Origin: Algimonas ampicilliniresistens
Lineage (GTDB): Bacteria; Pseudomonadota; Alphaproteobacteria; Caulobacterales; Maricaulaceae
Direction: 5' to 3'
DNA: 64,000 nucleotides
NCBI RefSeq assembly: GCF_030159955.1
Contig: NZ_BSNK01000002.1
Coordinates: forward strand, 868,001 to 932,000
Shown here piece after piece: positions 52,390 to 64,000 of this stretch. The notes under the pieces are model-generated. The model did not search any database. It was given only the letters and a program-made list of their open reading frames with translations, and was not told the DNA's origin. The position numbers were made by a program, and so were the translations under genes. Each line of letters opens with the position of its first letter. The first letter of the stretch is position 1.

Positions 52390-53907
52390 TTAAAGGAATA
52401 GCTGCGTGGCCGGATTGTCTGTTTCTTCCCAGACCGGGAAACCGATTGCGCTTAAGCTTTCTTCTAAGGCAGATTTATCATCCTTGGGCAGTTGAAATCC
52501 GCAGAGGACATGTCCTTCGGCTGCGCCGTGATTGCGGTAGTGGAACAGGCTAATGTTCCACCGTGCATCCAGCGCGCTGAGGAATTGCCCCAAAGCGCCG
52601 GGACGTTCCGGAAACTCGACGCGGTAAAGGACTTCACGCATGGTCGTGTCCGGGTCTCCGCCAATCATATGACGAAGGTGCCGCTTGGCGAGACGATCAT
52701 TGGATAGATCCAGAGCGGCGACGTTGGCGGCGTTCAGATCATTCATGACATTGTCGCGTTCCGCCCCGGATTTGATCTTCAGTCCGACGAGAAGATGCGC
52801 CTGTGCGTCATTTTGGTAGCGGTAGGAAAATTCTGTCACGGCGCGGTGGCCGAGAGCTTCGACAAAGCGCTGAAATGCACCGCGTTGTTCCGGGATCGTC
52901 GCACCGAAGAGCATTTCTTCGCCTGCACCCAGTTCGGCCCGTTCAACCATATGACCGATCCGGTCGAAATTGACGTTGGCACCGGATACAGTCACGACAC
53001 AGTCACCATCGGGCGCGCGCCCATCGGCCACGTCGCGGCGCAAGGCCGCCAAGGCTACGGCACCCGCCGGTTCGACAACGGTTCGTGTTGCCTCGAAAAT
53101 ATCCCGGACTGCCGCGCAAATTTCATCGTTGGTGACAGTGACGCAATCATCGACCACGTCGCAACATAGCGCATAGGTCAACGTTCCAATGCGCCGAACG
53201 GCCACCCCGTCCGCAAAGCCGTCAACGTGGTCTAGATCGACGGGCTGCCCGGCGGCCATCGCAGCCTTGAGCGTAGCGGCCCCGAGGGGCTCAGCGGCGA
53301 CGATACGTGTGTCTGGCGACACAGATTTTGCGTAAGCCCCGATGCCGGAGACTAAACCACCACCGCCCGTACAGACATAAATAGCGTCAATTTTCCGCGT
53401 CGCTTGCTCAAAGATTTCTTTGGCGACGGTGCCCTGACCCGCAATCACGTCCAGCTCATCAAACGGGTGAATAAAGATTGCGCCTGATTTTTGTGAATGC
53501 TCGATGGCGGCGTCGCAAGCCTCATCATAATTGTCGCCGACCAAGCGTGTTTTGCCGCCCAGCGCTTCAACAGCCGCAACCTTAATCGTGGGGGTGGTGA
53601 CGGGCATGAAGATCAATGCATCAATGCCGTAATGGGCTGCGGCCTTGGCCACGCCTTGCGCGTGATTGCCGGCACTGGCGGCGCACACACCCTGTACCCG
53701 TGCGATTTCGCCTAAGCCCGCCATCCGGTTGGCGGCGCCTCTGATTTTGAACGAAAAAACGTCCTGCAAATCTTCGCGTTTGAGCCAGATGCGGCGGCCC
53801 AATTCACGGCTTAGCTTGGGAACGAGCTGAAGCGGTGTGCGGTGCGCCAGTTCATAAACTTGTGCGGCGTCGATGCGCGCGCGTAGATCATGGATGTCAT
53901 GTCGCAC
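52390..53907 (-). CDS. ilvA: Threonine ammonia-lyase, biosynthetic
   Basis: A 505-residue PLP enzyme that deaminates threonine to 2-oxobutanoate, the entry to isoleucine. The PLP Lys is in FSFKIRGAANRM and the phosphate-binding Gly-rich loop in CTGGGGLVSGIGAY. Two ACT-like regulatory repeats occupy the C-terminus (RGAFQRFVEAL and RPGALGQFLSAL) and it ends NPATQLFL, so isoleucine feedback is expected. I prefer GTG 53907, which overlaps the leuB end by 11 nt; TTG/ATG-type starts up to 53970 are in frame but would add only unconserved residues. It is the last gene of the BCAA operon. Confidence 0.93.
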   Translation of the reverse strand: MRHDIHDLRARIDAAQVYELAHRTPLQLVPKLSRELGRRIWLKREDLQDVFSFKIRGAANRMAGLGEIARVQGVCAASAGNHAQGVAKAAAHYGIDALIFMPVTTPTIKVAAVEALGGKTRLVGDNYDEACDAAIEHSQKSGAIFIHPFDELDVIAGQGTVAKEIFEQATRKIDAIYVCTGGGGLVSGIGAYAKSVSPDTRIVAAEPLGAATLKAAMAAGQPVDLDHVDGFADGVAVRRIGTLTYALCCDVVDDCVTVTNDEICAAVRDIFEATRTVVEPAGAVALAALRRDVADGRAPDGDCVVTVSGANVNFDRIGHMVERAELGAGEEMLFGATIPEQRGAFQRFVEALGHRAVTEFSYRYQNDAQAHLLVGLKIKSGAERDNVMNDLNAANVAALDLSNDRLAKRHLRHMIGGDPDTTMREVLYRVEFPERPGALGQFLSALDARWNISLFHYRNHGAAEGHVLCGFQLPKDDKSALEESLSAIGFPVWEETDNPATQLFL

Positions 53908-54970
53908 GACGGACCCGATCTGCGATCTGCGATCCAACCTGATCGGTGGATAGGGTTCCACCCAGATCACCGGTCACGTCGCCAGAGGCCAGAGCCTGTT
54001 CGACCGCGGTTTCGATGGCAGCGGCTTCTGGGTTCAGTCCGAAGGACAAGCGCAGCATCCAAGCCGCCGACAGGATCATCGCGAGCGGGTTGGCCTTCCC
54101 TTGACCCGCAATGTCGGGCGCGCTGCCGTGGATCGGTTCGAACATGCCGACGACCCTTTGGTCCTCTCTGGCATCAGAAAGAGAGGCTGACGGGATCACG
54201 CCCATCGACCCACACAGGACAGACGCTTCATCGGTCAAAATATCGCCGAACATATTTTCTGTTAGCACCACATCGAACGCCGTCGGCCGGGTCAGCATAT
54301 GCATGGTCATCGCGTCAACGAGGAGGTGTTCCAATTCGACCTGTGGATACCGGCTCGCCACGCGTTCAACCGTTTCGCGCCAAAGGCGGGAGGTTTCCAA
54401 CACGTTGGATTTGTCGACTGATGTGACCTTCTTGCGGCGGGTCATCGCCAGGTCAAACGCCTTAATCGCAATACGCTCGACTTCGGACTCAGAGTAGCGG
54501 CACTCATCATAAGCGCCTTCCGCATCACGACCTTTTTTGCCGAAATAGATGCCCCCGGTGAGTTCGCGCATGACGACGAAGTCTGTCCCTTCCAGCCGGT
54601 CCCGCTTGAGCGGGGCGCGGTCGAGCAGGGCTTCATAGGGCTTGCAGGGGCGGATATTGGCGTAAAGGTTCAGGCGCTTTCGTAGCGGCAGAAGCGCGCC
54701 CAATTCAGGCCGATCCGCGCCTTTGAGATGATCCCATTTCGGACCTCCGACCGCACCGAGCAGCACAGCTCCTGTGCGCTGGCAGGACTCAAAACTTGTC
54801 TCGGGCAAGGGTTTTTCGCCGGCATCAATCGCCGCCCCGCCAACGAGATGGTGTTCGGCCTCTAACGTATGACCAAATCTCTGAGTGGTCGCTTGGAGCA
54901 CAGCCATCGCTGCTGCGCCAACTTCCGGACCGATCCCGTCACCGGGCAGATAGGTGAATTGGATATTCAT
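53897..54970 (-). CDS. leuB: 3-isopropylmalate dehydrogenase
   Basis: A 357-residue NAD-dependent enzyme that oxidises and decarboxylates 3-isopropylmalate to 2-oxoisocaproate in leucine synthesis. LPGDGIGPEV at the start, ELTGGIYFG, VDKSNVLETSRLWR and GSAPDIAGQGKANPLAMILSAAWML are the family signatures. It overlaps leuD by 4 nt upstream and ilvA by 11 nt downstream. Confidence 0.96.
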   Translation of the reverse strand: MNIQFTYLPGDGIGPEVGAAAMAVLQATTQRFGHTLEAEHHLVGGAAIDAGEKPLPETSFESCQRTGAVLLGAVGGPKWDHLKGADRPELGALLPLRKRLNLYANIRPCKPYEALLDRAPLKRDRLEGTDFVVMRELTGGIYFGKKGRDAEGAYDECRYSESEVERIAIKAFDLAMTRRKKVTSVDKSNVLETSRLWRETVERVASRYPQVELEHLLVDAMTMHMLTRPTAFDVVLTENMFGDILTDEASVLCGSMGVIPSASLSDAREDQRVVGMFEPIHGSAPDIAGQGKANPLAMILSAAWMLRLSFGLNPEAAAIETAVEQALASGDVTGDLGGTLSTDQVGSQIADRVRRAT

Positions 54971-55551
54971 TTGCCGAGCCGTTCTTCGTAATCGGAAATT
55001 GCGCTCACTTGTCCGTCTAGATAACCAAGTTCGTCCACGCCTTCGATCAGGCAGTGGGCCGAAAAATCATCGACATCAAAACGGTACGTACCGCCATTGC
55101 CGGGCAGGCGGACTTCGCGGCGGATCAAATCGACGGCCACATCTGCGCCTGGATGATCGAGCAGCCATTGATGTGCGCCTTTTTCGATCACGATGGGCAG
55201 CAGTCCATTCTTCACTGCATTTGAGCGGAAAATATCGGCGATTTCGCTGCTGATGACAACGCGAAAGCCGTAATCCGTCAGCGCCCAAGGCGCGTGTTCA
55301 CGCGAGCTGCCGCAACCGAAATTATGGCCACCGACGAGGATTTGCGAAGCTTTTGCGGCTTCACCATTCAACTCATGGTCTGTTTCCGATCCGTCCTCAG
55401 CATAGCGCCAGTCATTAAAGGCGTGTTTGCCGAGGCCGTCGCGCGAGGTGACCGTCAGGAACCGCGCCGGAATGATTTGGTCCGTATCGATATTCTCCGC
55501 CGGAAGAACAACCGTGCGGGAGGTGAGAGTGGTGAGGGGGGCGTTGCTCAT
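54967..55551 (-). CDS. leuD: 3-isopropylmalate dehydratase small subunit
   Basis: A 194-residue swivel-domain subunit that completes the active site of Leu[14 protein letters not shown] near residue 20 and [18 protein letters not shown] near residue 73 are diagnostic. It overlaps leuC and leuB by 4 nt each (ATGA), so the three products are translated in a coupled way. The normal stoichiometry is one LeuD per LeuC. Confidence 0.96.
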
Positions 55552-56945
55552 GATGCTAACCCCGCAACACTGGTTACAACGCCGGCGATAGCGCTTGCTG
55601 CGGCTGTCTCCGGGCTGGCTAGAACGGTGCGGGCGCCGGGACCTTGACGGCCTGCGAAATTGCGGTTGCTCGTGCTCACCACCAGCTCGCCCGGTGCAGC
55701 CTTGTCACCATTCATAGCGATGCACATGGAGCATCCCGGTTCGCGCCATTCCGCACCGGAAGCCATGATGATCTCGTGTAGACCTTCAGCTTCGGCCGCT
55801 GCTTTGACGCTCTCACTGCCGGGGACAACAATTGCGCGAACACTTGTCGCAACGGTCCGGCCTGACAGAATGTTCGCGGCAGCGCGCATGTCTTCTAGGC
55901 GGGCATTAGTGCAAGAGCCGATAAAGACACGGTCAACACGTTGCCCGGCCATGGTCTGACCAGCCGTGACTTGCATATAGCTGAGCGCTTTTTCGTCAGC
56001 TTCATTGGCAGGGTTTGGAATGGGCGCGTCAATCGGCGCAGCCATGCCGGGATGCGTGCCATAGGTCGCCATCGGACGAATTGTTGCAGCGTCCATGCGC
56101 ACGATCTTGTCGAACGTCGCGCCCTCATCGGTTGTCAACTTACGCCATTGATCGACAGCCGCATCGAAATCCTCTGGTGAATGCGGTCTCCCGCGCAGGA
56201 AATCGAACGTTGTCTCATCCGGCGCAATCAAGCCGCAGCGTGCGCCCGCCTCAATGCTCATATTGCAGACGGTCATTCGGCCTGCCATGCTCATTTCTTC
56301 GAATACAGTACCGCGATATTCCAAGGCATAGCCCGTACCGCCGCCGACACCGATTTCGGCAATGATCGCCAAGATTACATCTTTGGGCGTCACGCCGTCG
56401 ACAAGCTCACCCGTCAGTTCGATCGCCATTGTCTTTGGTTTGCGCATAAGCAAACATTGCGTGGCCAGCACATGGCCGACCTGGGTCGTGCCGATGCCAA
56501 AAGCGATAGCCCCAAACGCGCCATGTGTGGAGGTATGGCTGTCGCCGCAAACAATGGTCATGCCGGGCTGCGTCGCGCCAAGTTCTGGCCCCATGACGTG
56601 CACAACCCCGCGATTGTCACTGTCCCAACCATGCGTTTCGACACCGTGCTCTGCTGTGTTGGCGAGTAGGGTCGCGACCTGAGTCTTGGCTTGCGCGTTG
56701 ACATAAAGCGGCGCGCCGTCCTCGTCCTTCAAGGTCGGCGTCGAATGGTCGATTGTCGCGAGCGTCCTGTCAGGGCGACGCACGGGCAGGTTCCGGTCGC
56801 GTAAGACGGTGAAGGCCTGCGGGCTGGTGACTTCATGGATCAAATGCAAGTCGATATAGAGCGTCGCCGGATTGGCCGCCGCTTCCGGCGTCACCACATG
56901 CGCGTCCCAGATTTTGTCGAAGAGCGTTAGAGGGTTACTGGCCAT
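55548..56945 (-). CDS. leuC: 3-isopropylmalate dehydratase large subunit
   Basis: A 465-residue aconitase-family enzyme that isomerises 2- to 3-isopropylmalate. The 4Fe-4S ligands are visible: Cys in [16 protein letters not shown] and the pair in [30 protein letters not shown] is a substrate-binding block. It begins 1 nt after the leuA stop codon and overlaps leuD. Confidence 0.96.
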
Positions 56946-56946
56946 A

Positions 56947-58494
56947 TCAGTGCTGCGCCGCGATGGAGGCCTGACGCACGGTGCGCCGCTCGACGCGGTT
57001 GATCACGTCCAGATAGGCCCGGGCCGAGGCGAGAACGGTGTCCGTGCTGGCGCCCCGCCCCTGATAAGTTTCAAACTCGGTTGCGACGCGCACGGTGGCT
57101 TCAGCCATCGCATCTTCACCGCCCGACACGGAGGTCACAGCGTAATGTTCTAGCGTCATTGGTGTGTCGGTAATCCGGCTAATCGCGTCGAACACGGCGT
57201 TCATCGGCCCGGCCATTTCGGAGACATGCGTTTGGGTACGTCCATCCTTGTGTTTTAATGCCACCGTGGCCTTGGGCATACGGTGCTCGTCCGATCCAGC
57301 GGAGACATAAAGGCTCTCAATTTCCCAAGGGCCAACGGACCCAACCGCTTCGCCCAACACCAACGCTTCAATATCGCTGTCGAAGACTTCCTTCTTGGCA
57401 TCTGCCAATTCTTTGAAGGCGACGAAGATGGATTGAAGCTGATTGTCCGACAGGGTGAAGCCGAGCTTTTCAGCCCGGTTCTTCAAGGCGGCGCGTCCGG
57501 AATGTTTGCCGAGCACAAGGTTGTCCGTGGATACGCCGACATGTTCCGGCTTCATGATCTCATAGGTTTCGCGATTGGCGAGCACACCATGCTGGTGGAT
57601 ACCGCTCTCATGCGCGAAGGCGTTTTTACCGACGATGGCCTTGTTGCGCGGGACGGCATTGCCTGTGATCGCGGCGAGGAGTTTGGACGCGCCGTAGATC
57701 CCCTCGGTGCGAACCCGTGTGTCGATACCGAAAAAGTCGCGCCGCGTGCGTAGCGCCATGACGACTTCTTCCATCGCGCAATTACCTGCCCGTTCGCCGA
57801 TACCGTTGAGTGCGCATTCGACTTGGCGCGCGCCGCCGCGCACAGCAGCAAGGCTATTGGCAACCGCCAAGCCCAGATCGTCGTGGCAGTGGGCCGAGAA
57901 GATCACATCATCTGCGCCTTCGACTTCGGTCGTGAGGAATTGGAACAAATCGGTGATTTCTTCCGGCGTTGTGTACCCGACCGTGTCCGGGATATTGATC
58001 GTGCTTGCGCCCGCTTGGATAGCGGCTTCGACAACGCGTTTCAGATAGTCGCGTTCTGTGCGGATCGCGTCTTCACAGGAAAACTCGACATCATCCGTAT
58101 ATTGCCGGGCGAGTTCAATCGCGGCGATGGCGCGGCGGACAATCTCGTCCTTATCCATCTTCAACTTGAACTCGCGGTGCAGCGGGGAGGTCGCAATGAA
58201 GGTGTGGATGCGGCCGGATCGGGCAGGCTTAATGGCTTCGCCCGATGCCCGGATATCGCCCTCATTGCAGCGCGCAAGCGAGCAGACGGTGGCTTCCGTG
58301 ACCATTTCTGCAATGGCTTTGATGCCCTCGAAATCACCGGGAGAAGCGGCGGCGAAGCCCGCTTCAATCACGTCTACGCGCAGACCTTCAAGTGCCTCGG
58401 CCATAGCGAGCTTTTGTCCCGCGCTCATGGAAAAGCCAGGGGCTTGCTCACCGTCGCGCAAGGTCGTGTCGAATATCTTTACGCGATCGGTCAT
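56947..58494 (-). CDS. leuA: 2-isopropylmalate synthase
   Basis: A 515-residue enzyme that condenses acetyl-CoA with 2-oxoisovalerate, the first committed step of leucine synthesis. The TIM barrel starts [16 protein letters not shown], has [17 protein letters not shown] (metal His pair) and [15 protein letters not shown], then [11 protein letters not shown]. The C-terminal regulatory domain (residues about 395-515) that binds leucine is present. Its start overlaps ilvN by 4 nt. Confidence 0.96.
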
Positions 58495-58793
58495 GCCCGC
58501 TCCGCCCGTTTTCGACGTCCAACTTTCTCTGCGCTGACGACATTATAAAGCCGTTCCAATTGTTTGCAGAGAATGTCGAGATTGCGCGGTCCGCCAATAT
58601 CCTCGATCCGTACCAGCAAATCGAAATCCCCATCGACGCGCTGCGTACAGTGGACATCGCGATAATCGTAACCACGCCGTTCAATCGTGCCGAGTGTTCG
58701 CAGCAGCGTGCCAGAGACATCATGCAGCACGACCTTGAGCGTGCCTGACACGCCGGAGGATTCGAAGGTTTTATCGCGTTGAAGTTCAGTCAT
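58491..58793 (-). CDS. ilvN: Acetolactate synthase small (regulatory) subunit, short form
   Basis: A 100-residue protein with one ACT domain (about residues 20-80: LKVVLHDVSGTLLRTLGTIERRGYDYRDVHCTQR) and a short basic tail. Typical alphaproteobacterial IlvH/IlvN subunits are about 160-190 residues with a second C-terminal domain, which is absent here; the size is closer to E. coli IlvN or IlvM. It starts one base after the ilvB stop codon and overlaps leuA. The single ACT domain is expected to bind valine. Confidence 0.8.
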   Translation of the reverse strand: MTELQRDKTFESSGVSGTLKVVLHDVSGTLLRTLGTIERRGYDYRDVHCTQRVDGDFDLLVRIEDIGGPRNLDILCKQLERLYNVVSAEKVGRRKRAERA

Positions 58794-58794
58794 T

Positions 58795-60522
58795 CTACCG
58801 CTCCATCATGTCGGCATTGGAGCGCCCTGGCGGGACGAGCGGCCAGACATTTTCCATTGTGTCGATTTTGACGTGCATCAGGATCGGGCCGTCTGCCGCC
58901 AGCAGGCGATCAATGCCAGCATCGACTTCGCTGCGCTCACGCACGACAAAGCTCTCAACCCGGAAGGCTTCAGCAACCTTGGAGAATTCCGGATTATCGT
59001 CCAAATTCACTTCGGAATAATTCTGTTCGAAAAAGACTTCCTGCCACTGCCGCACCATGCCGAGCGCGCTATTATCCAGGAGCACAATTTTGAGCGGGAT
59101 TCCGTAGCGGTGCAGCGTTTGCAGCTCTTGGATATTCATCATGATCGAGCCGTCACCTGAGACGGTGATCACAGTTCGGTCGGGTGCGCCAAGTTTTGCG
59201 CCGAGCCCAGCTGGCAGGCCGAAGCCCATCGTGCCGAGGCCGCCGGATGTGATGTGATCTTTCGGGTCATCGAAATAGCAATGCTGCGCGACCCACATTT
59301 GGTGCTGGCCCACGTCGCAGGTGAAAATCGCGCTATCGGGTGCGCGGCGCGATAGATCATGCAGCAATTTGGGCGCGTAAACACCGTTGCCGGGCGCGTC
59401 ATAATCCCACTCATACATGGACCGACGCGAATAGCAGAGCTCTCGCCATGGTTCGATCTGCGCTTTCTCATAGGGCTCGTCTTTGAATGGATCGAGCGCA
59501 GAGAGGTTCTTTTTCAAACTGCCATCGAGGAACACATCGGCGCGGCGTAGCTTATCGATTTCCGCCACGTCGATATCCATATGGATGACTTTTGCGCCCG
59601 GCGCGAATGTGTCGAGCTTGCCCGTGGCACGGTCATCAAACCGTGCGCCTGCGACGATCAGTAAGTCACATTCCTGTACCGCATAGTTGGCGGCTTTAAG
59701 ACCATGCATGCCGAGCATGCCGAGATAGTGCGGATGATCTGACGGCAATGAGCCCAGTCCCTTTAGGGTTGAGACAACAGGAATTTCGGTGCGTTCGACC
59801 AACTCGCGCAGCTCCGCCACGCCGTCGCCTTGGGCGATGCCGCCACCAATATAGAAGAGTGGACGTTCCGCCGCGCGGATCAGAGTTTCGGCGCGCGAGA
59901 TATTTTCCGACGTGCCCATTTCTGGTTTGACCTTAGGATAAGGTCGCCAGCGATGACGCTCGGTCGTGACAGCATTGGCGACGTCTTTGGGCAAGTCGAT
60001 CAGCACCGGACCGGGACGACCTTCGCCCGCGATAAAGTAGGCTTCCGCGACCATGCCCGGAATATCCGCCGGGTCGCGCGCAATATAGCTATGCTTCACA
60101 ATCGGCATGGTGATGCCGACAATGTCGACTTCTTGAAACGCGTCCGTGCCCATCAGATCGGACGGGACCTGACCGGTGATAAAGACGACCGGAACCGAGT
60201 CTAGATAGGCGTCCGCGATAGCGGTGACGAGGTTGGTCGCGCCCGGTCCTGATGTCGCCAGCGCCGTGCCGACCTTGCCCGTTGCCCGCGCATAACCGAT
60301 GGCTGCCATGCCGCAGCCTTGCTCATGACGGCAGAGAATATGTGTCAGGGACGTGCGTGGCAGCACATCATAGACAGGCATGATCGCCCCGCCGGGATAG
60401 CCGAAAATCAGATCGACGCCCTGCGCCTCGATCGCTTCGAGGAGAAGCTGCGCGCCGGATTTCGGCGCACGATTCTCAAAGATCTCGGTCTGTTGCTTGG
60501 CGAACTGGGTAGCAGTCGTCAT
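58795..60522 (-). CDS. ilvB: Acetolactate synthase large (catalytic) subunit
   Basis: A 575-residue ThDP enzyme that forms 2-acetolactate and 2-aceto-2-hydroxybutyrate, the shared step of valine, leucine and isoleucine synthesis. HEQGCGMAAIGYARATG carries the ThDP-activating Glu, GPGATNLVTAIADAYLDSVP is family-typical, and GDGSIMMNIQELQTL is the ThDP/Mg motif. AGGAAG precedes the ATG. A 71-nt gap separates it from ilvC. Confidence 0.95.
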   Translation of the reverse strand: MTTATQFAKQQTEIFENRAPKSGAQLLLEAIEAQGVDLIFGYPGGAIMPVYDVLPRTSLTHILCRHEQGCGMAAIGYARATGKVGTALATSGPGATNLVTAIADAYLDSVPVVFITGQVPSDLMGTDAFQEVDIVGITMPIVKHSYIARDPADIPGMVAEAYFIAGEGRPGPVLIDLPKDVANAVTTERHRWRPYPKVKPEMGTSENISRAETLIRAAERPLFYIGGGIAQGDGVAELRELVERTEIPVVSTLKGLGSLPSDHPHYLGMLGMHGLKAANYAVQECDLLIVAGARFDDRATGKLDTFAPGAKVIHMDIDVAEIDKLRRADVFLDGSLKKNLSALDPFKDEPYEKAQIEPWRELCYSRRSMYEWDYDAPGNGVYAPKLLHDLSRRAPDSAIFTCDVGQHQMWVAQHCYFDDPKDHITSGGLGTMGFGLPAGLGAKLGAPDRTVITVSGDGSIMMNIQELQTLHRYGIPLKIVLLDNSALGMVRQWQEVFFEQNYSEVNLDDNPEFSKVAEAFRVESFVVRERSEVDAGIDRLLAADGPILMHVKIDTMENVWPLVPPGRSNADMMER

Positions 60523-60593: not shown

Positions 60594-61619
60594 CTAGTTC
60601 TTATCCTTGTCGATGATTTTGTTGGCGGCGATCCACGGCATCATTTCGCGCAACTGGCCACCAATCTGTTCGATCTGGTGCTCTTCCATGTTGCGGCGGC
60701 GGGCGGTCATGGATGGATACCCCATGGCGCCTTCGATGATGAAGTTCTTGGCATAAGTGCCGTCTTGAATGTCCTTCAGCGCCTTGCGCATGGCAGTGCG
60801 AGAGCTTTCATTCACAACCGCTTCGCCGGTCACATATTCCCCAAATTCCGCATTGTTGGAGATCGAGTAATTCATGTTGGCAATGCCGCCTTCATAGATC
60901 AGATCGACGATCAGCTTGGTCTCATGCAGGCACTCGAAATAGGCCAGCTCTGGCGGATAACCGCCTTCGACCAAGGTTTCGAAACCCATCTTAATCAACT
61001 CGACAATACCGCCGCAAAGCACGGCCTGCTCGCCGAATAGATCGGTTTCAGTTTCGTCCTTGAAGGTGGTGTAGATGATCGCTGTGCGACCACCGCCAAT
61101 AGCCGAGGCGTAGGACTTCGCTGTCTCAAGCGCCGCTCCGCCATTGGCGTCTTGCGCCACAGCGATCAGATCGGGAATGCCGCGGCCATTCGTGAATTCG
61201 TTGCGAACCGTATGGCCGGGCGCTTTGGGCGCCACCATGATTACGTCGAGGTCGCGGCGCGGAATGATCTGGCCGTAATGGACGGCGAAACCGTGACCAA
61301 AGGCGAGTGTTGCGCCTTCCTTGATATTGGGTTCGATATCTTCGCGATAGATTTTAGCCTGCCATTCGTCCGGCGTCAGCACCATGACGACGTCTGCGCC
61401 TTTGACAGCATCGGCTGTGGCGAGGCTTTCGAGACCGTCCCGCTTGACCTTTTTATTGGTTGCGCTGCTCGGCTTCAGGCCGACAACGACATCGACGCCA
61501 CTATCATTCAGGTTCAGGGCATGGGCGCGGCCCTGACTGCCATAGCCCAGCACGGCGACGCGCTTGCCTTTGATGATATCAACGTCGCAATCTGCGTCGT
61601 AAAAAATTTCAATGCTCAT
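60594..61619 (-). CDS. ilvC: Ketol-acid reductoisomerase
   Basis: A 341-residue class I enzyme that isomerises and reduces acetohydroxy acids with [26 protein letters not shown] is the nucleotide fold; [11 protein letters not shown]-like [26 protein letters not shown] and [22 protein letters not shown] hold the metal-binding acidic residues. It starts 6 nt after the ilvD stop codon. The reductoisomerase is normal in length. Confidence 0.96.
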
Positions 61620-61625
61620 GGGAGT

Positions 61626-63296
61626 CTAGTCCTGTTGGAATGGGAAAGAGGTGACCGCGCCTTTGGACGCGCTGCCGACGAGTGCGGCGAATTTTGCGTA
61701 GGCACCGACTGTGTCGCGCGGGAGCGATGGTGCCCATCCCTCCGCGCGTGCTTTCAAGTCAGCGTCGACATTTATGGTTTGGGCTTCGACATCAATGGTG
61801 ATGAGATCGCCGTCTTGGACGAAAGCAATCGGCCCACCGTGAGCGGCTTCAGGGGCAACATGACCGATAACGAAGCCGTAGCTTGCGCCAGAGAAACGAC
61901 CGTCGGTAATTAATGCGACATGGTCGGCCAGATCCTGCCCAACGAGCGCCGCCGTCACGGCTAACATCTCGCGCATACCGGGTCCGCCGCGCGGGCCTTC
62001 ATTGCGAATGACGACAACGTCGCCTTTGTTAATGCCGTTATTTTGGACAACCTCGAAACAGGCTTCTTCGCTTTCGAATACGCGGGCGCGGCCTTCAAAA
62101 TAAAGCGCCCCGTGACCCGCGAGTTTCACAACACAGCCTTCGGGCGCGAGATCGCCATACAGAATACCGTAACCGCCCCGCGATTTGACGGGATCGTCAA
62201 AGGTTCGGACCACATCCTGTCCGGTTTTTTCGTCTGCGGCGGCAATTTCCGCGAAGAGTGAGAGGCCGCTGACTGTTGGTTGATCCGTGATCCGATCATC
62301 CGCGACCAAACGCTGTCCGATCAGGCCAGACCCGCCAGCCTCATACAGATCAAACGCCATATATTTGCCGCCTGGCTTCAGATCGCCAATGACGGGTGTG
62401 GTGCGACTGACATGGTCAAACGCATCAATGTTGAATTCTTCAACCTGCGCTTCGCTGGCGATAGCCAGAAGGTGCAAGATCGCATTGGTTGACGCGGCTG
62501 TCGCTGACAGCGCAATCGCTGCGTTCATCAGGCTGTCTTTGGTGATCATCTCTCGCGGCAAGCGGTTGTGTTTCACGCAATCCACGACACACATACCGGC
62601 ATCATAGGCCGCGCGGGTCTTATCTTCATGCACGGCGGGAATATCGTTTGTGCCCATGGGCGACAGGCCCAAGAAAGTCATCGCCATCGCCATACTATTG
62701 GCGGTGAACTGACCGCCACACGCACCTGCGCCGGGGCAGGCGGATTTCTCGATTTCGGTCAGTTCCTCTTCATCGATCAACCCTGCTGCGCAGGCCCCGA
62801 CCGCTTCGAAGACATCCTGAACTGACAGGTCACGACCCTTGTGACTTCCCGGCATAATCGAACCGCCATAGAGCACGACACCCGGCACATTCATGCGTGC
62901 CAATGCCATGCCCGCCGCTGGAATGGTTTTGTCGCAACCGACCAAAATGATGACACCATCGAGTGAGTGGCCGCGCACGGCCAACTCAATGGAATCGCAA
63001 ATGACTTCGCGGCTCATTAGTGAGGCCCGCATGCCGTCGCTACCCATCGTGATGCCGTCGGACACGGCGATGGAATTGAAATCGACGGGCGTGCCGCCTG
63101 CAGCCCGGATCCCCGCTCGAACAGGGATAGCCAGCTTATCCAGATGCATGTTGCACGGGCCCATATTGGTCCACGTATTGAACACGGCGATGATCGGCCC
63201 TTCGAAGGACTCGTCCGTCATACCGGAAGCCCGCAGCATGGCCCGCGCCGCAGAACGGTCTCGGCCAGTGACAATCGCGTCGGAACGCTTGCTCAT
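61626..63296 (-). CDS. ilvD: Dihydroxy-acid dehydratase
   Basis: A 556-residue Fe-S enzyme that dehydrates dihydroxy acids to 2-oxo acids. Three cluster Cys are visible: [22 protein letters not shown] and [16 protein letters not shown], the pattern of the 2Fe-2S type. Late motif: [21 protein letters not shown] start at ATG 63296 because AAGGGG lies 6 nt upstream; the frame is open to 63344 but would run into the terminator hairpin. It is the first enzyme gene of the BCAA operon and sits 33 nt behind the attenuator-like terminator. Confidence 0.95.
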
Positions 63297-63328
63297 TTCC
63301 ATCCCCTTAACAGCCAGATGAACGCAAT

Positions 63329-63356
63329 AAAAAACCCGCCTCAAATGGGGCGGGTT
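63329..63356 (-). terminator. Terminator/attenuator between the leader ORF and ilvD
   Basis: On the minus strand: AACCCGCC (63356-63349), 8-nt loop, GGCGGGTT (63340-63333), then a T-run. The 5' arm with the preceding C (CAACCCGC, 63357-63350) is also perfectly complementary to GCGGGTTG (63390-63383) in the last leader codons, which gives an 8-bp antiterminator with a 25-nt loop. The two structures exclude each other. Confidence 0.8.
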
Positions 63357-63379
63357 GCTTGCTGGCTTAAGATACTCGC

Positions 63380-63505
63380 CTACAACCCGCTCAGCACCCC
63401 AAGAAGGAGTACAATAAGACCAACGATTAGTACGAGTTCGACATTCGCGCTCGACGCACGGGTCTCGACCTTCACTTTAGGCTCGTCTTTATGAAACGGG
63501 TTCAT
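63380..63505 (-). CDS. Candidate BCAA leader peptide (41 residues) for the ilvD operon
   Basis: AAGG lies 5 nt before the ATG. The peptide begins [14 protein letters not shown] and its residues 22-41 contain 8 Leu, 5 Val and 2 Ile out of 20, including a VLLL run at 32-35. The stop codon is 23 nt before the terminator stem. The last codons (Ser39-Leu41) can form an antiterminator with the terminator's 5' arm. If ribosomes stall on Leu/Val/Ile codons, the antiterminator can form; if they reach the stop codon, they cover it and termination wins. A small single-pass membrane protein is the alternative reading. Confidence 0.6.
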
Positions 63506-63564
63506 GTGAGCCTTAAACCGTAAACGCGGCCTAGTCTCAAGAGGAAAATTTGCCGCTGATTTGC

Positions 63565-63583
63565 AAAAAGCTTCGAAGAAGCT
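63565..63583 (-). terminator. Short terminator after the trans-sulfuration gene
   Basis: On the minus strand: AGCTTC-TTC-GAAGCT followed by four T. It lies 24 nt downstream of the stop codon of the PLP enzyme gene, so the BCAA leader transcript starts after it. Confidence 0.5.
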
Positions 63584-63606
63584 GTAAAATCATGCCCTAA
63601 TTATTG

Positions 63607-64000
63607 TTAAATTGAGGCAAGGGCTGCCTCCAGCGCTGCGATGAGGTCCTCTTTCGCTTCGATTCCGGTCGACACACGGATCAATGTTTCGTCCAATCCT
63701 GCTGCGGCCCGTGCCTCTGGTGCCATACCGCGATGGGTCATTGTCGCAGGTTGGCAAATCAGGCTTTCGACCCCGCCAAGTGAGGCGGCCAAGCGGAAGA
63801 GTTCTATGCTCTCCATGACCGAAGCAGCGGCGGCTGCGCCGCCTGCCACACGGAAAGACAACATCGCGCCCGGGCCGGACTGTTGCTTTACGGCCAAGCC
63901 AGCGTCCGGGTAATAGACATCCGTCACTTTATCATGGTCGCGTAAGACGGCGACGATGGCTTTGGCATTAGTTTCTGCCGCGTTGATGCGCAGAGCCAGC
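63607..64000 (-). CDS. Cys/Met-metabolism PLP enzyme (cystathionine gamma-synthase/lyase type), C-terminal part
   Basis: The frame runs off the right edge; about 130 C-terminal residues are visible. LRINAAETNAKAIVAVLRDHDKV, GPGAMLSFRV and especially SLGGVESLICQPATMTHRGM are the conserved C-terminal blocks of MetB/MetC/MetZ enzymes. Which reaction (cystathionine synthesis, cleavage or sulfhydrylation) cannot be told without the N-terminal half. GTG 63927 lies inside the domain and is not the true start. Confidence 0.88.
   Translation of the reverse strand, partial: LALRINAAETNAKAIVAVLRDHDKVTDVYYPDAGLAVKQQSGPGAMLSFRVAGGAAAAASVMESIELFRLAASLGGVESLICQPATMTHRGMAPEARAAAGLDETLIRVSTGIEAKEDLIAALEAALASI

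Follow-up and report, generated by a model that had tools for sequence, protein, structure and literature searches.

The bacterium analysed here, Algimonas ampicilliniresistens, presumably belongs to the same order as Caulobacter crescentus. A leader attenuator of the C. crescentus ilvBN (ilvIH) genes is attributed in PMC4117421 to Tarleton, Malakooti and Ely (1994). PMC6123439 summarises how operons for branched-chain amino acids (BCAAs) are attenuated in Gram-negative bacteria; it cites the survey by Vitreschak et al. (2004) and gives the leader peptide of Escherichia coli ilvGMEDA as 32 amino acids long, with 15 BCAAs. Our literature searches, with most subscription journals outside their coverage, returned no paper that by its title or the start of its abstract dealt with the leader described below in Algimonas or its family.

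This leader lies on the minus strand of a stretch of 64,000 nucleotides (the window), in front of nine tightly spaced or overlapping genes of the same strand. Their order is ilvD (dihydroxy-acid dehydratase, 61626-63296), ilvC (ketol-acid reductoisomerase, 60594-61619), ilvB (acetolactate synthase large subunit, 58795-60522), ilvN (58491-58793), leuA (2-isopropylmalate synthase, 56947-58494), leuC and leuD (isopropylmalate dehydratase large and small subunits, 55548-56945 and 54967-55551), leuB (3-isopropylmalate dehydrogenase, 53897-54970) and ilvA (threonine ammonia-lyase, 52390-53970, start codon uncertain). Eight of them were identified by NCBIfam models; the small ilvN-like protein had no NCBIfam match at 1e-20 and was recognised by its ACT domain (Pfam ACT_5). 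These matches support the nine-gene operon named in an earlier, sequence-only reading of the window. We consider it highly probable that the ilvDCBN-leuACDB-ilvA operon is preceded by a ribosome-mediated transcription attenuator.

The leader ORF, also found in relatives, has 41 codons and a TAG stop (63380-63505, from the ATG at 63505 to the stop at 63380), and 101 nt separate its ATG from a cystathionine gamma-synthase-like gene that ends at 63607 on the minus strand. A Shine-Dalgarno-like AAGG (63511-63514), read from the sequence, stands 5 nt before the ATG as the putative ribosome site. Codons 22-41 (63383-63442) form a tail, evident from the sequence, its composition and the leaders of relatives, in which 15 of the 20 final residues are Leu, Val or Ile (L/V/I); among 18,242 stretches of the same length, taken from 48 long ORFs of the window, none contains at least 14. 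Stall modelling points to GTA CTC CTT CTT (codons 32-35, Val-Leu-Leu-Leu, 63401-63412) as the probable main control codons.

A predicted intrinsic terminator begins 23 nt past the leader stop (63329-63356 with its T-run, hairpin 63356-63333). It consists of AACCCGCC-CCATTTGA-GGCGGGTT, with eight pairs, rich in GC and followed by Ts, and was recognised from the sequence and by pair counting. Segment 2, GCGGGTTG (63390-63383), lies in the last leader codons and is the exact complement of segment 3, CAACCCGC (63357-63350). By sequence and folding, and for segment 2 also by the swap tests below, segment 2 would be the 5' strand of an antiterminator, with segment 3 common to antiterminator and terminator; the two hairpins are predicted to be mutually exclusive. 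The ORF with its AAGG and L/V/I tail, the 8-bp terminator and the complementarity of the leader end to the terminator 5' arm had all been claimed in the sequence-only reading, and all were found in place. Its ilvD start, too, lies close behind the T-run: the likely ATG is at 63296, with AAGGGG ahead and about 32 nt past the T-run, and a second in-frame ATG at 63302 is an alternative.

A strong promoter between terminator and ilvD had been named earlier as an observation that would speak against attenuation. A promoter scan of the minus strand found no match there, which is weak evidence, as it found none before the leader either. An AT-rich stretch followed by CTTGA was noticed by eye at 63536-63552 (minus strand), at least about 30 nt upstream of the leader ATG, and recurs, again by eye, ahead of the leader start in many of the loci L031-L077. 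It is perhaps part of a promoter, although it was not among the matches of the promoter scan.

In the proposed mechanism, RNA polymerase would make the leader and a ribosome would follow on the 41-codon ORF. With charged Leu, Val and Ile tRNAs plentiful, the ribosome would arrive at the stop codon and cover segment 2, segment 3 would pair with segment 4 (GGCGGGTT) to form the terminator, and transcription would stop before ilvD. A stall in the Leu/Val/Ile run up to codons 32-35 would leave segment 2 free to pair with segment 3 before segment 4 exists, giving read-through into the operon, and a response would be expected to each of the amino acids. When no ribosome is present, segment 2 may be held by segment 1 (AACCCG, 63497-63502), a possible protector strand just behind the leader ATG that the folding model points to, and the default would be off.

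Relatives were collected in two ways. A search with the leader peptide gave matches in 41 of 138 family genomes at E<=1, the weaker ones probably by chance. Among 30 fetched peptide-match loci (the window's included), 21 had ilvD in the flank and 2 had ilvC instead; the 7 without ilvD were left out of further comparison. From the ilvD search, in which the closest named relative was Algimonas arctica (92%), 40 of 80 loci were examined (L031-L068, L071, L077). Screening of 64 loci removed 3 without ilvD, 2 ending before the leader and 17 repeats of another copy. The 42 that were left, together with L017 and L019, gave a set of 44 leaders, of which one is the window's and 43 come from relatives; two rows of their alignment (A2) are identical, so that 43 rows are distinct. 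In L021 the leader lies further upstream, and in L021 and L054 (Robiginitomaculum antarcticum) the terminator is separated from ilvD by a reading frame of about 120 codons.

The ORF was found in all 44 leaders. Three elements do not vary in any of them, namely CGGG close to the leader stop, CCCGC and GCGGGTTTTTT, to be read with the fact that the search patterns already held most of these letters. The terminator core CCCGC/GCGGG is kept across the set, and the terminator pattern was present in all 59 ilvD loci whose upstream sequence was long enough (two contigs were too short). The peptide drifts except in its L/V/I tail and, for some of the leaders, in an N-terminal motif. Such an alignment had been suggested with the sequence-only reading, and its expectation held: tail, terminator and the pairing of leader end with terminator persist while the peptide changes. 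The leader also stays with the head of the operon, standing before ilvC in L017 (ilvC 86%, ilvB behind) and L019 (ilvC 92%).

The antiterminator pairing was examined by permuting its halves between genomes, uncorrected for relatedness of the leaders. Across the 44 leaders the cognate mean was -16.50 kcal/mol versus -13.05 (sd 0.36) for permuted halves, and the cognate mean was reached in 0/20,000 permutations. The cognate hairpin was better than its own swapped mean in 39 leaders and no better in five (L009, L017, L050, L051, L056). With the short arms alone (segments 2 and 3) the same leaders gave z -9.2 (0/5000). As controls, two further stretches of the leader were swapped against segment 3, with z 0.3 and 0.1, and the 24 nt that precede the ATG were swapped against segment 2, with z 0.3. 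Swapping segment 3 against segment 4 gave z -4.0.

A duplex version of the test, in which L192, L203 and L166 were omitted because they repeated or nearly repeated other leaders, gave z -6.3 for 73 leaders, -5.0 for the 44 alone and -4.2 for 32 leaders picked one per lineage. In 29 leaders of other genera alone the signal was weak (z -2.4, 106/10,000). Pair counting in the 8-bp antiterminator core found no covariation above shuffles (82.8% vs 82.8%), a count that is uninformative because four pairs never vary. The compensatory changes anticipated for this pairing thus did not exceed shuffles in the invariant core, and support for the pairing comes from the surrounding sequence, where cognate arms outperform swapped ones. 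For the terminator, 94.8% of cells were paired and 8 cells had changed on both sides vs 2.0 expected (0/500 shuffles).

We considered whether the ORF could instead be a gene for a functional small tail-anchored membrane protein, with the hairpin as its own terminator and ilvD under a separate promoter. The charged N-terminus followed by a hydrophobic run fits such a protein, as does the amino-acid-level conservation of the N-terminal motif in 26 of the 44 leaders. The tail, however, lacks ordinary transmembrane composition. Pooled over the 44 leaders, tails hold 34.9% L, 25.4% V and 13.2% I (73.5% L/V/I), with 1.2% A, 0.8% M and 0.6% F, whereas 30 transmembrane-like segments of the window have 20.7% L, 13.7% I, 13.0% A, 10.7% V, 6.8% F and 3.3% M. 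The remainder of the peptide drifts, the motif is missing from 18 leaders, and the antiterminator arms pair in a partner-specific way. The ORFs of L050 and L056 already end ahead of segment 2, and segment 2 is retained there all the same; selection on a protein hardly explains this. A separate promoter would have to fit into the short gap between T-run and ilvD, where the scan gave no match (nor did it before the leader). Conservation of the peptide as a membrane protein, raised earlier as an objection, thus does not hold for the A/F/M-poor tail and holds for the N-terminal motif in part of the set; we regard the membrane-protein explanation as very improbable. As a separate observation, the leader stop of L205 likewise precedes the antiterminator strand, and the strand persists beyond the end of the ORF.

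Codon choice in the tails is also biased. Pooled without correction for relatedness, tails use ATT for Ile at a frequency of 0.84 (0.37 in the window's own operon, 0.54 in ilvD of 34 relatives), GTG for Val at 0.57 (0.27 and 0.27) and CTT for Leu at 0.33 (0.11 and 0.19). In the window's leader the last 20 codons contain CTT three times and GTG only once. Strong synonymous bias in leaders fits the selective charging of isoacceptors, as described in PMC1183508. The putative control codons match the amino acids made by the ilv-leu operon.

Consequences of ribosome position were modelled with an assumed footprint of 12 nt, starting at the first base of the codon in the A site. For RNA ending before segment 4, stalls at codons 30-35 gave modelled energies between -20.8 and -20.6 kcal/mol; the values were -15.5 at codon 36, -7.1 at 37-38 and -0.5 at 40-42. 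By this measure codon 35 is the last stall that leaves the whole antiterminator free, and the probability of segment 2/segment 3 pairing stays above 0.5 through codon 36. The fall in energy after codon 35 and the loss of pairing past codon 36 therefore place the modelled switch at the end of the Val-Leu-Leu-Leu run. The earlier claim that a ribosome stalled in this run would leave the antiterminator strand uncovered, and one at the stop codon would cover it, agrees with the pre-terminator folding model.

The stall model was applied to 43 of the 44 leaders, excluding L010, which has a different pairing register. Relative to the last permissive codon, L/V/I make up 98% at positions -4 and -3, 21-29% at positions 0 to +2 (21-23% at 0 and +1), 2% and 0% at +3 and +4, and 37% at +5, mostly the last codon. 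Where the permissive boundary falls depends mostly on how far away CGGG is, so the count shows that the spacing between the L/V/I run and segment 2 is maintained. At equilibrium the full leader favours the terminator even with stalls at codons 31-35 (P 0.97, 0.97, 1.00, 0.69 and 0.67), so the model needs folding in 5'-to-3' order during transcription. The modelling suggests that ribosome position decides which hairpin forms, in folding before segment 4 only.

Without a ribosome, segment 1 of the window's leader pairs with segment 2 in the model (P 1.00, at nt 7 counted from the ATG) and the terminator has P 0.9996. The terminator is favoured in this state in only 29 of the 44 leaders, and the family-wide segment 1 swap (z -2.1) is close to its control with codons 9-16 (z -1.8). 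Segment 1 is not established as a family-wide feature; the protector step may apply locally, to the window's leader. Neither such a segment nor the N-terminal motif figured in the sequence-only reading.

The positions of the codons also bear on whether the region is a metabolite-binding riboswitch or a protein-controlled attenuator in which the ORF is incidental. A 5' leader with alternative hairpins would suit either, and a weak 'ilvD motif' riboswitch candidate is described for Veillonella in PMC8632094. However, the L/V/I codons sit where a stall matters, the aligned ends of the 44 leaders are variable outside the pairing cores, and no Rfam family was found in the window at the cut-offs. 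A loose-limit Rfam scan gave hits to leader, sRNA and other families, all of them below threshold; among these, Leu_leader (RF00512), Thr_leader (RF00506), Trp_leader (RF00513) and Phe_leader (RF01859) scored 13.2-21.2 bits against cut-offs of 41-55. We judge this explanation the least probable of those considered, marginally below the membrane protein, and retain ribosome-mediated attenuation.

The leader peptide may carry more than control codons. Near the N-terminus, the pattern [KR][VIA]K[VIT] occurs in 26 of the 44 leaders, mostly as PKVKVAxR, and is absent from 18; in the window it reads PKVKVETR (codons 9-16, 63458-63481), recognised from relatives' leaders and codon differences. Over the five codons from the motif start, mean pairwise differences at codon positions 1, 2 and 3 were 0.087, 0.100 and 0.502, where the conservation of the four pattern residues is inflated by using the pattern to pick the leaders; the linker after the motif gave 0.71, 0.61 and 0.68. 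The Ala and Arg positions, which lie outside the selection pattern, showed 0.12, 0.34 and 0.73. In the 26 leaders the motif looks to be under selection at the amino-acid level. Pfam gave no match for the leader peptide.

From this it could be proposed that attenuation is real and that the N-terminal motif gives the peptide an additional action, either once it is released or while still in the ribosome, a reading that adds to the attenuator explanation rather than competing with it. The retention of first and second codon positions while third positions vary, unlike in the linker, and the same contrast at Ala and Arg argue for it. Lys is not a BCAA codon, and therefore the motif Lys is no BCAA control codon. 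A leader peptide acting in trans has a precedent in Sinorhizobium peTrpL, as presented in PMC7298713 and PMC10117765. Against the proposal stand the pattern-based choice of leaders, the 18 leaders in which the motif is missing, the weaker contrast within L001-L005 alone (0.08, 0.24 and 0.24) and its absence, by eye, from the leaders of other genera, whose start codons are not certain; a similar pattern could also arise if selection acted on how the early codons are translated. We consider a second function unlikely, if well above the two competing explanations in probability. If true, PKVKVAxR would give the released peptide or nascent chain a second function, and the attenuator would encode a dual-function small protein.

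The attenuator extends beyond the 44 leaders, from which an RNA model (R1) was built. In its own genome the window's attenuator is the sole R1 match at E<=0.01. Matches at 1.6e-6 or better occur in 47 of 138 family genomes, many of which are in the model itself; at E<=0.01 there are matches in 91/138 and 123/399 genomes, which are not counts of this attenuator. When 20 weaker places were inspected, 9 lay by ilvD (for L160, the leader is on the opposite strand). Of the other 11, 4 look like Thr leaders and 7 like ordinary terminators. Leader and terminator were also present in L152, L155, L165 and L166, fetched through R1 matches.

An ilvD match was found in 104 genomes of the order (151 searched). 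Beyond the ten nearest (L172-L181), the region upstream of ilvD was inspected in 40 of the 104, with 54 outside the sample, a leader being counted when at least 8 of 14 residues were L/V/I and a terminator followed. Such a leader with terminator precedes ilvD in 27 of the 40. Two are ambiguous (L204 without a recognised T-run, L208 with 6/14 L/V/I), and in 11 no leader was seen before ilvD (L182, L183, L185, L186, by eye, and L214-L220); L214-L220 carry a more distant ilvD type (47-50% identity). In L183, ilvD follows directly behind threonine synthase without an attenuator, and L182, L185 and L186 look alike by eye. Several wider relatives have GGGAGCGG as leader strand and CCGCTCCC as partner in place of GCGGGTTG and CAACCCGC, and the same switch therefore appears with other letters.

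Two further features were noticed in these genomes. In L159, L161, L162 and L163 (about 380-820 of the oriented locus), a Thr-rich leader ORF with terminator stands before an aspartate kinase-like gene, which in L162 matches models for aspartate kinase and for homoserine dehydrogenase with scores under the curated cut-offs; from their sequence, these Thr-rich leaders in other family genera look like a threonine attenuator. A TTGCAnnGCAA-like palindrome, possibly an operator, was seen by eye just before the leader ORF in L155, L160, L167, L188 and L193; a check of window positions 63500-63610 found no pattern of this type.

Attenuation itself is textbook, and the window's leader is very probably a new example of this known mechanism that falls below every Rfam cut-off. 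This is probably how Algimonas-like bacteria and their relatives control a BCAA operon of nine genes. The leaders form a large natural set of one attenuator, with control codons, stop codon and antiterminator strand shifted relative to one another, and could serve for testing models of ribosome position and codon choice.

Comparison with described systems rests on their published descriptions. The C. crescentus ilvBN leader is presented in PMC4117421 as having tandem Ile/Val codons and a rho-independent terminator in front of BCAA genes, as here; that attenuator is described for ilvBN (ilvIH in the figure legend), whereas the window's precedes ilvD and heads nine genes. E. coli ilvGMEDA, ilvBN and leuABCD share the BCAA-rich leader peptide with terminator and antiterminator and differ in operon content, according to PMC6123439. 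Sinorhizobium trpL, another alphaproteobacterial attenuator, encodes the leader peptide peTrpL, described in PMC7298713 and PMC10117765 as a 14-amino-acid Trp leader, while a second role of the window's peptide is only a possibility. Corynebacterium glutamicum ilvBNC, as described in PMC11857589, has the arrangement of anti-antiterminator, antiterminator and terminator that is proposed here, with CUU and GUA control codons; it belongs to another phylum, controls another operon through a 15-amino-acid leader, and its hairpins were tested by mutation, whereas those of the window are modelled.
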